Of a stretch of DNA of 64,000 nt, positions 20,718 to 58,968 are shown piece after piece. Numbering within the stretch: the stretch's first letter is position 1; each line of letters opens with the position of its first letter. Below the pieces are notes generated by a model. That model ran no database searches. It worked only from the letters and a program-made list of their open reading frames with translations, and was not told the DNA's origin. This DNA comes from Fibrobacter sp. UWT2. GTDB taxonomy: Bacteria > Fibrobacterota > Fibrobacteria > Fibrobacterales > Fibrobacteraceae. The position numbers and the translations under genes were made by a program. Location of the stretch: assembly GCF_900142545.1 (NCBI RefSeq), contig NZ_FRBF01000013.1:1-64000 (forward strand), written 5' to 3'.

Positions 20718-21479
20718 ATGGCTAAGATTAAAATCAAATCCGCAAAAGAAATTGAACTGATCCGCGATGCCGGCGCCCTTGCCGCCGAAACGCTGATTCG
20801 CGCAGGCGAAATGTGCAAGCCGGGTGTTTCCACCCTCGAAATCGATGAATTCATCGGTGACTATACCCGCAAGAACAAGGGGATTTCCGCTTGCATGGGC
20901 TACCACGGTTACCCGCGTTACGCCTGCATTAGCATTAACGAAGTCGTTTGCCACGGCATTCCGAGCGCAAACACAATCCTGAAAGACGGCGACATCGTGA
21001 ACATCGACATCACGACGATTCTTTCGGGCTACCACGGCGACACTTCCGCCATGTTCTGCGTGGGTCGCGTGAGCAACCTCGCCCAGGAACTCGTGGACAC
21101 CGCCAAGTTCTGCATGGAAGAAGGCATTCGCGTTGCCGGTGAAGACGGCGCCCGTTACTACGATATCGGAAACATCATTCAGGATGTCGCCGAAGAACAC
21201 GACTTTAGCGTGGTAGAAGACTACTGCGGTCACGGCATCGGTCGTGGATTCCACGAAGAACCGACCCTGTACCACTTCCGCAACAACGTTCTGAAGCAGT
21301 TTATCGAAGTCGGTCACGTGTTCACGATTGAACCCATGATCAACGTGGGTCGCCCGGGCACCAAGACGCTCAGCGACGGTTGGACTGCAGTGACCCGCGA
21401 CGGCTCTTTGAGTGCCCAGTGGGAACACACCGTGGCTCGCACCAAGAACGGCATTGAAATTCTGACGCTCCCGCGTTAG
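20718..21479 (+). CDS. map: Methionine aminopeptidase, type I
   Basis: This 253-residue metalloenzyme removes the initiator methionine from new proteins. The metal ligands are all visible: two Asp in VNIDITTILSGYHGDTSAMF, His in CGHGIGRGFHEEP, Glu in FTIEPMI and Glu in AQWEHTV. Substrate-site residues lie in ISINEVVCHGIP. Length fits bacterial type I without an extension. It lies 12 bp after the helicase gene and is probably cotranscribed. Confidence 0.96.
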   Translation: MAKIKIKSAKEIELIRDAGALAAETLIRAGEMCKPGVSTLEIDEFIGDYTRKNKGISACMGYHGYPRYACISINEVVCHGIPSANTILKDGDIVNIDITTILSGYHGDTSAMFCVGRVSNLAQELVDTAKFCMEEGIRVAGEDGARYYDIGNIIQDVAEEHDFSVVEDYCGHGIGRGFHEEPTLYHFRNNVLKQFIEVGHVFTIEPMINVGRPGTKTLSDGWTAVTRDGSLSAQWEHTVARTKNGIEILTLPR

Positions 21480-21521
21480 CCAAGAGAACGGACATTCTGT
21501 CCTACAGACGAGAGACGAGAG

Positions 21522-21857
21522 ATGTCACTATTGGGAAATCTCCGCAACAAGGCGGTAGAAGCCTTTGTCAAGAATCACGAACTGGTCAAGCGCTTTGGCG
21601 ATGTCCAGTCGGTTTCTATTGATTCGGACAACGGCACCGCCGACGTGAGTGTTCTTTTGCACGGCGAGATTTTCCCGATCAAGTTCCGCGGCTATTATTA
21701 TTTTGACGATACCGATACAGGTACCGATATCGTGGTCCGCAAAATCACCTGCGAGCGCCAGTGGATTGACCAGGCGCTTTCGTATTGGCTCGAAGGCAAG
21801 ACCCTCCGCTACAACCTCCCCGGACTCGCCGGCGGCCTCGCGAAGATTATATTCTAG
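21522..21857 (+). CDS. Conserved small protein, unknown
   Basis: This 111-residue soluble protein has no signal peptide. Its pattern is a short N-terminal helix (NLRNKAVEAFVKNHELVKRFG) followed by beta strands (VSIDSDNGTADVSVLLHGE, IKFRGYYYFDDTDTGTDIVV) and a final helix. No family was recognised. It starts 42 bp after map, and the decamer repeat GACGAGAGAC (21508-21517) lies directly in front of its start. Confidence 0.65.
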   Translation: MSLLGNLRNKAVEAFVKNHELVKRFGDVQSVSIDSDNGTADVSVLLHGEIFPIKFRGYYYFDDTDTGTDIVVRKITCERQWIDQALSYWLEGKTLRYNLPGLAGGLAKIIF

Positions 21858-57660: not shown

Positions 57661-58968
57661 ATGAACCTCGCTGGAAAGAAAATCTTGCTCGGAGTCTCGG
57701 GCGGCATTGCCGTGTACAAGAGCTGCGAGCTGTTGCGCCTGCTGCAGAAGAAGGGCGCCGAAGTGCGCGTATGCATGACCGATGCGGCTACCGAATTCGT
57801 GGCTCCGCTGACTTTTGCAAGCCTGAGCAAATGCCCCGTGTATCTAAAGAACGGAGCTGTCGAAGCGCGCCCCTTCCAGCATATCGATTTTCCGCGTTGG
57901 GCAGACCTTTATTTGGTGGTACCCGCGACAGCAAATGTCATCGGTAAATTCGCCTGCGGTATCGCCGACGATCCGGTGAGCCTTTGCTTTATGAGCTGCA
58001 CGTGCCCGCGCGTGATTGCGCCGGCGATGAATGTGGCGATGTACAACTCCCCTGCGGTAAAACGCAACCTCGAGATTTTGCGCGGTTTCGAAAACACGAC
58101 CGTGCTTGAATCGCCTGCGGGTGAACTCGCCTGTGGTGAGGTGGGGCAGGGCCGTCTGATGGAACCGGCTGAGATTGCGAAGTATTTAGAGACGAGAGAC
58201 GAAAAGCCCGCCCTGAGCCTGTCGAAGGGACGAGAGACAAAAGGCGAAAAGGTTCAATGCGAACCGCCCGCAATTTCTGTCGCAGTCGATATTCCGCCGA
58301 CACAAGATGCAAGCCTTCCCGGCTTCGGCAAGAAGGTTCTCTTGACCGCAGGCCGCACCGAAGAAGCGATCGATCCGGTGCGCTATATTAGCAATCGCAG
58401 CAGCGGCAAGACCGCCGTGGCGCTAGCCTCGGTATTCTACGCCAACGGCTTCGAAGTCGAAGTGGTCGCAGGCCCGATGGAGGCCGAATTCCCGAAGGGC
58501 GTTCGCGTGACTAAAATCAGAAGTGCCCGCGATATGCATGACGCCGTCCTTGAACGAATGAAGAATGCAAGCGTGCTCGTTCACTGCGCTGCAGTCGCCG
58601 ACTACCGCCCGAAAGTGGCCGCTACCGAAAAGATTAAGGATAGCCGCAGCCAGCTGATTCTGGAGCTGGAACCGAACCCGAATATTTTGCGAGACAGCGT
58701 CGCCCAAAAGCGCGACGATCAAGTGATTGTCGGTTTCGCACTTGAGACCGATCACTTTGAAGAACACGCCGCCGAAAAGCTTGCAAAGAGCGGCGCTGAC
58801 GCTTTACTTTTGAACGCACCCGTGGCCACCGACTCTGGCTTTGGCCGCGACTGCGTACGCTTCGCCCTGGTGGAAACGGGCAAGCCCGTTCCACAGCTCG
58901 CCATGGGCGAGAAGGTCGATTTGGCCGAGACGATTTTGAACTTTTGCCTGGAGCGCCTGAATGGCTGA
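57661..58968 (+). CDS. coaBC: CoaBC: PPC synthetase/decarboxylase
   Basis: This 435-residue bifunctional enzyme makes 4'-phosphopantetheine. The N-terminal flavin-dependent decarboxylase (about 3-180, VSGGIAVYKSCELLR, ATANVIGKFACGIADD, PAMNVAMY) is joined to a C-terminal synthetase (about 225-430, TAGRTEEAIDPVRYISNRSSGK, AAVADYRP). The linker (about residues 178-200) has gained a repeat translating as PALSLSKG with flanking direct repeats. ATG 57661 is the start; the frame upstream to 57631 overlaps the rpsA terminator. It overlaps the next gene by 8 bp. Confidence 0.95.
   Translation: MNLAGKKILLGVSGGIAVYKSCELLRLLQKKGAEVRVCMTDAATEFVAPLTFASLSKCPVYLKNGAVEARPFQHIDFPRWADLYLVVPATANVIGKFACGIADDPVSLCFMSCTCPRVIAPAMNVAMYNSPAVKRNLEILRGFENTTVLESPAGELACGEVGQGRLMEPAEIAKYLETRDEKPALSLSKGRETKGEKVQCEPPAISVAVDIPPTQDASLPGFGKKVLLTAGRTEEAIDPVRYISNRSSGKTAVALASVFYANGFEVEVVAGPMEAEFPKGVRVTKIRSARDMHDAVLERMKNASVLVHCAAVADYRPKVAATEKIKDSRSQLILELEPNPNILRDSVAQKRDDQVIVGFALETDHFEEHAAEKLAKSGADALLLNAPVATDSGFGRDCVRFALVETGKPVPQLAMGEKVDLAETILNFCLERLNG
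58191..58238. repeat. REP-like insertion in coaBC with direct repeats
   Basis: CCCTGAGCCTGTCGAAGGG (58211-58229), the widespread CCTGAGC-TGTCGAAGG repeat, lies between two copies of GACGAGAGAC (58191-58200, 58229-58238). It is in frame and encodes LSLSKG. Confidence 0.75.

Follow-up and report, generated by a model that had tools for sequence, protein, structure and literature searches.

REPs, which fall into GTAG- and CGTC-tagged superfamilies, are described in the relevant sections of PMC3733652 as short multi-copy stem-loops with intragenic copies that lean towards DNA repair and RNA enzymes, and those of the CGTC superfamily also lack a RAYT transposase. RPEs, according to the part of PMC10969869 that deals with them, are elements of about 150 bp with a CGTC end that insert in frame into unrelated metabolic genes and add a tolerated peptide to the product. 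Dispersed heptamers are a further kind of repeat; those treated in PMC4692102 include GGGGAYT and GGGAATC of Nostoc/Xanthomonas and the heptamers of Calothrix, and are over-represented in non-coding DNA.

Here we analyse a stretch of 64,000 nucleotides from Fibrobacter sp. UWT2 (the window), in which a 24-bp palindrome lies within a 7-nt repeat array in the linker between the two enzyme domains of CoaBC. Very probably the array is the older of the two, and the palindrome inserted into it later, without target duplication, and was tolerated. Like REPs, the Fibrobacter palindrome is a short (20-40 bp), dispersed, multi-copy stem-loop with covarying stem positions and an uneven distribution among species, and the likeness extends to intragenic copies, helicases and tRNA synthetases being among the genes concerned (PMC3733652). 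Unlike REPs, it has neither a GTAG nor a CGTC tag, and no RAYT gene flanked by it was found. GGT stands directly 5' of the stem in 26 of 30 copies from genomes G019 and G006 (loci L276-L305, counted by eye), a possible tag, where the window copy has CCCG. The palindrome resembles RPEs in CoaBC, a metabolic enzyme to which it added a tolerated peptide in frame and whose empty site is seen in the sister; the copy at locus L004 also reads in frame, as SSLSLPKG, by eye, and insertion into further, unrelated genes may be common to both. Unlike RPEs, the palindrome measures 24 bp and has no CGTC end (PMC10969869), and it is partnered by a heptad array of about 30 bp that is not palindromic. The partner array resembles the known heptanucleotide tandem repeats in forming period-7 arrays dispersed over the genome (PMC4692102), and differs from them in its unit, GACGARA, in its commonest length of four units, often after TTA, and perhaps in its placement, 13 of 39 arrays lying in 11 Pfam-recognised enzymes. 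The word 'Fibrobacter' is absent from the main text of PMC3733652, and literature searches on the peptide LSLSKG, Fibrobacter repeats, intragenic palindromes and heptameric repeats returned no description of these repeats in titles or the beginnings of abstracts. The CoaBC case is a Fibrobacter variant of intragenic REPs/RPEs, in which the main partner is a 7-nt element without palindromic symmetry. What sets it apart is that the 7-nt array arrived first, that GTAG/CGTC tags are lacking, and that repeats have replaced one another serially in a single linker.

The coaBC gene occupies positions 57661..58968 of the forward strand (ATG at 57661, stop codon ending at 58968) and encodes a bifunctional phosphopantothenoylcysteine decarboxylase / phosphopantothenate-cysteine ligase of 435 aa, in which Pfam recognises a Flavoprotein domain (residues 6-164) and a DFP domain (residues 223-400). 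The linker between them (58159..58344, forward strand), 62 aa that begin after GRL and end before TAGRTEE, is made up mostly of dispersed repeats. The 19-mer palindrome core CCCTGAGCCTGTCGAAGGG lies there in frame at 58211..58229 (forward strand), as the original prediction held and as sequence search, Pfam and frame check bear out; it is the single copy in the window at up to 3 mismatches, and 100 shuffles of the window gave no match. Compared with the sister species, the inserted unit is the 24-bp palindrome CCCGCCCTGAGCCTGTCGAAGGGA (58207..58230, forward strand), eight codons in frame that read PALSLSKG (residues 183-190, between the two Pfam domains), its ends uncertain by 1-2 bases because the flanks have diverged. 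An AlphaFold2 model built on an alignment of 25 sequences (mean pLDDT 81.6; pTM 0.53, the relative placement of the domains not being reliable) predicts the linker around the insert to be disordered, residues 181-209 forming the sole segment of at least 3 residues with pLDDT below 50, and such disorder would account for the tolerance of the insert.

On either side of the 19-mer stands the decamer GACGAGAGAC, at 58191-58200 and 58229-58238, as had been predicted. A third copy, previously placed one base too far along (21508-21517), is at 21507-21516; 0.19 copies are expected in the window by chance, and no shuffle reached three. The first G of the right-hand decamer is also the last G of the 19-mer. 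A count over the genome (3.49 Mb in 49 contigs) gave 53 copies of the decamer, often 7 or 14 bp apart, against 3 for the reversed control. The decamer is therefore part of a 7-bp tandem repeat and corresponds to one and a half units of the array (GACGARA)n. The concern that it might be common by chance thus holds in one half: common it is, as a repeat and not by chance. The left part of the array in coaBC (58191..58204, forward strand, GACGAGA GACGAAA) includes the left decamer and is present, without the palindrome, in the sister (G102/L182); the right part (58229..58249, forward strand, GACGAGA GACAAAA GGCGAAA) shares its first base with the 19-mer, includes the right decamer and has CGAGTGGCGATAGGCGAAAAGG as its counterpart in the sister.

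The second heptad element of the window (21480..21521, forward strand) has a small-hairpin form, AGAACGGACATTCTGTCCTACA then GACGAGAGACGAGAG, and lies between the stop codon at 21477-21479 and the ATG at 21522. Almost the whole gap consists of this element, whose array extends into the next start codon (GACGAGAGATG); the gene ending at that stop codon presumably encodes methionine aminopeptidase. With the decamer as seed we found 39 distinct arrays in the genome, of 1 to 5 units, four being commonest. Fifteen lie directly 3' of TTA and ten follow ACA, most of these ten belonging, by eye, to a second form that has a small hairpin; inspection by eye revealed no clear case of target duplication around the arrays. 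That the heptad is free of stops in all six frames explains little of its tolerance, 8264 of 16384 heptamers sharing this property.

MAG RUG14497 has the closest CoaBC in the named genome collection (L182); it is 96% identical over the protein and, by coordinates, the same gene as that of G102 (L208). Fibrobacter sp. UWT2 and G102 are sisters (support 100/95) in a tree of the two CoaBC domains with the linker left out. Alignment of the Fibrobacter linkers revealed that the sister has the same linker minus the palindrome (ETRDETRVAIGEKVQCEPPA, against ETRDEKPALSLSKGRETKGEKVQCEPPA in the window): ETRDET is followed directly by RVAIGEKVQCEPPA in the sister, and ETRDEK by PALSLSKG and RETKGEKVQCEPPA in the window. 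In DNA, GAGACGAGAGACGAAACG adjoins CGAGTGGCGATAGGCGAAAAGG in G102, and GAGACGAGAGACGAAAAG and CGAGAGACAAAAGGCGAAAAGG are separated by the 24 bp in the window. The difference is in codon register and local, with alignable sequence up to both sides. The ends and the polarity of the window insert carry some doubt, since there is a single empty-site genome, with several substitutions in the flanks; an exchange of a single base pair for 25 is also conceivable.

A second insertion in the same linker is base-exact. The 24-bp sequence CCTGTGCTGAGCAACGCCGAAGCA, read as PVLSNAEA, lies between CCCCTTCT and AGCGGGGG in four genomes (G030, G070, G074 and G094), and in G012 and G014 these two flanks adjoin directly, reading CCCCTTCTAGCGGGGG; comparison of empty and occupied sites gives 0 bp duplicated. 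The insert resembles that of the window in its peptide (P-A/V-L-S...) and in its DNA (CTGAGC...CGAAG), and from this likeness it is probably a dispersed repeat too, although the sample of 124 non-coaBC sequences contained no match to it. In a third case, SLSLSKG occurs elsewhere in the linker, with an AAGGT flank, in G032 and G068.

We found coaBC homologues in 72 of 80 Fibrobacter genomes and extracted 71 linkers, the match in G065, a fragment without linker, being left out. The linker DNA of 55 of the 71 species matches repeats at non-coaBC loci (E up to 0.001), as against 0 of 71 reversed linkers, in a comparison set made of the window outside coaBC and other non-coaBC loci (124 sequences, 0.42 Mb) that is biased towards heptads and the 19-mer. 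By pattern, 14 of the 71 linkers contain heptads, 10 (11 with G019) contain CTGAGC..CGAAG palindromes, 5 contain ATCCTGAGC..GTCGAAGGATC, 4 contain CCCGCG..GGCGGGGATCTC and 30 a GC-rich element, besides others. The families matched at other sampled loci are heptads, LSLSKG, TEPAE/GEPAEP, ATCCTGAGC.., CCCGCG.. and the GC element; CATTCCGG.. was matched at one other locus of the sample, and PVLSNAEA, VTLSETKG, AACAAT, TACGAG and CATTGCGAG at none within the 124 sequences. Across the genus the same CoaBC linker carries a changing set of different repeats. The repeats in this one linker of an essential enzyme differ from species to species, and empty sites are found next to occupied ones, which shows bacterial proteins gaining sequence through repeated insertion of dispersed repeats. 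This offers a natural experiment in which the sites of core enzymes that accept new peptides can be counted, and a system in which to learn how repeats of 24-30 bp move without a visible transposase. In the linkers of G081 and G084 (L242, L243), forward heptads (GACGAAA...) and then heptads in reverse complement (TTTCGTCTATAGTC...) surround short hairpins, forming a larger inverted heptad element.

The original prediction had likened the decamers to a target duplication; on that view the palindrome is a tiny transposon that duplicated GACGAGAGAC at insertion, and two identical decamers do stand on either side of it. The sister, however, has heptads on both sides of its empty site, which makes the decamers the older sequence and not a target duplication of the palindrome; they belong, moreover, to a 7-nt-periodic repeat with 53 genomic copies, the right one overlaps the palindrome by one base, and the base-exact PVLSNAEA insertion, the cleanest of all, duplicated nothing. 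What stands of that prediction is the clean in-frame insertion into the inter-domain linker, backed by the sister's empty site and by the second 24-bp case; a target duplication is hardly credible, and a MITE with one was rejected on the same two grounds, the pre-existing array in the sister and the 0 bp duplicated with PVLSNAEA. A loss of 24 bp from an ancestral palindrome in G102 is unlikely. The array context is common to only two species, which makes the polarity depend on outgroups, but other heptad-bearing linkers (G001, G012, G014, G018, G070 and others) are without the palindrome at that place, the five named having an array at the same codon (YLETRD), and excision would have had to leave an in-frame, heptad-phased join by coincidence.

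A different possibility is that nothing transposed, and that recombination between dispersed repeats, by gene conversion or slippage, swaps and patches linkers, so that what they contain, the palindrome with it, comes in blocks from other places. Linker contents do differ wholesale between species: the strict heptad label (13 of 71 linkers) changes 11 times on the CoaBC tree, at least 10 of them forced by well supported branches, with gains indistinguishable from losses or exchange. Array length also ranges from 1 to 5 units, and at locus L018, unrelated to coaBC, heptads and the GC element are likewise neighbours. For the window insert, however, the array of the sister lacks the palindrome, the difference is confined to 24 bp with flanks alignable right up to it, and the PVLSNAEA event is equally local; we give recombination perhaps one chance in a few as the source of the palindrome, and consider recombination among dispersed copies a serious competing explanation where whole linkers have been replaced. 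That the inserted peptides are useful, as spacers or for binding, in a linker selected to change, is very unlikely. The linker measures 44-122 aa in the 71 species, every one of them exceeding the 25-30 aa of four outgroup sequences (measured by eye between the same landmarks), but neither its sequence nor its length varies in any evident pattern, the model predicts disorder there, and the same decoration in unrelated enzymes argues for tolerance.

In the genome of UWT2 the 19-mer CCCTGAGCCTGTCGAAGGG has 1 exact copy and 6 more at up to 2 mismatches, with 0 for the reversed control. The outer stem pairs of the palindrome covary: in 30 contexts drawn from 139 matches in G019 and G006, the first position is paired in 29, with four pair types, against a shuffle maximum of 21. 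Folding energy as RNA was no better than that of shuffles for the insert (z = 0.25), the PVLSNAEA insert (0.37) or a 58-nt region (0.73), and an RNA hairpin as the reason for the palindrome was rejected on these results.

We favour insertion of the palindrome into an older array, for which the sister's empty site, the in-frame 24 bp and the dispersed nature of both repeats are direct support, along with the predicted disorder of the linker. In the ancestor of Fibrobacter sp. UWT2 and its sister, (GACGARA)n would have come to occupy the disordered linker, replacing the GC-rich repeat of the next relatives; later, in the UWT2 lineage only, a 24-bp REP-like palindrome (CCYG-NN-CTGAGC..CGAAG-NN) would have entered the array without target duplication. 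It would have survived because 24 bp make eight codons, the frame read (LSLSK) has no stop and the linker has no fold to disturb, and selection probably tolerates the inserted peptide without using it. The palindrome may have moved as single-stranded DNA, in hairpin form, through an HUH/RAYT-like enzyme acting in trans, which the absence of target duplication fits. A RAYT as mover found no support: a PF01797 search found no RAYT gene in the UWT2 genome, 20 of 61 Fibrobacter genomes having PF01797; the palindrome was near none of ten RAYT loci examined; and the number of palindromes bore no relation to the presence of a RAYT (medians 8.5 and 7.0; p = 0.62). The enzyme may have been lost or may act from elsewhere.

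Heptad arrays also lie in other genes of this genome. By plain count, twenty-two of the 39 are in a frame that stays free of stops for at least 40 codons to either side; these make up 20 reading frames, all scanned with Pfam, and 13 of the 39 are internal to 11 Pfam-recognised enzymes. These are a DegT aminotransferase, an HrpB-like helicase, an RlmL-like methyltransferase (two arrays), a topoisomerase III-like protein (two arrays), HemD, a radical SAM-SPASM protein, an HrpA-like helicase, a class I Glx-tRNA synthetase-like protein, which we take to be GluQ-RS, an M18 aminopeptidase, PriA and CoaBC. Among the other nine frames, two have a Pfam match that was not counted, one being a TonB plug protein and the other a Fib_succ_major protein. 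The remaining seven have none, and some of these are surely chance frames. The paired arrays of the topoisomerase III-like (L024, G000 C4) and RlmL-like (L013, G000 C2) genes are separate elements. In the DegT-family aminotransferase (L009, G000 C1:212145) a four-unit array in reverse orientation (LSSLVSRLSS) stands just before SFYPTKNLG, presumably the lysine site.

The TopoIII-like and RlmL-like loops, compared in 11 relatives (the RlmL-like gene being found in 10), hold heptads, ATCCTGAGC..GATC palindromes, another 7-nt-like repeat or simply a short loop, depending on the species. The TopoIII stretch compared is 30 bp longer in Fibrobacter sp. UWT2 than in G102, G101 and G005, and since the flanks have diverged, no base-exact empty site for the array was found in the loops of either gene in these relatives. 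The topoisomerase III loop of G029 (L251) has a different 7-nt-like repeat, GTAGGAAGTAGGAAGTTAGAAGTAGACAGTAG, where others carry GACGARA. We consider it possible, if rather doubtful, that the heptad array is itself an undescribed mobile element, of about 30 bp and four GACGARA units, with neither inverted repeats nor target duplication, which enters after TTA by machinery of its own; it would decorate core enzymes throughout the genus, and the CoaBC linker, like other permissive loops, would record successive repeat invasions.

Both repeats are common in Fibrobacter. A 19-nt heptad pattern (up to 1 mismatch) matches in 55 of 61 Fibrobacter genomes, with 0-186 copies and a reversed control of 0 except for 1 in one genome, and the 19-mer palindrome (up to 2 mismatches) likewise in 55 of 61, with 0-132 copies, 7 of them in Fibrobacter sp. 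UWT2. In a sample across the phylum, a 23-nt heptad pattern allowing up to 1 mismatch was present in 61 of the 67 Fibrobacter genomes and in 2 of 83 others, and the palindrome (exact, with Y at one place) in 51 of 67 and 15 of 83. Among the sampled genomes of the phylum the heptad is therefore nearly genus-bound and the palindrome wider; the palindrome had been said to be spread through many bacterial genomes, a statement to which these counts speak within the phylum. One of the two heptad-bearing genomes outside Fibrobacter, G152 (genus g15, same family), has 93 heptad matches, and its sampled congeners G109 and G160 have none, which suggests a recent transfer or expansion.
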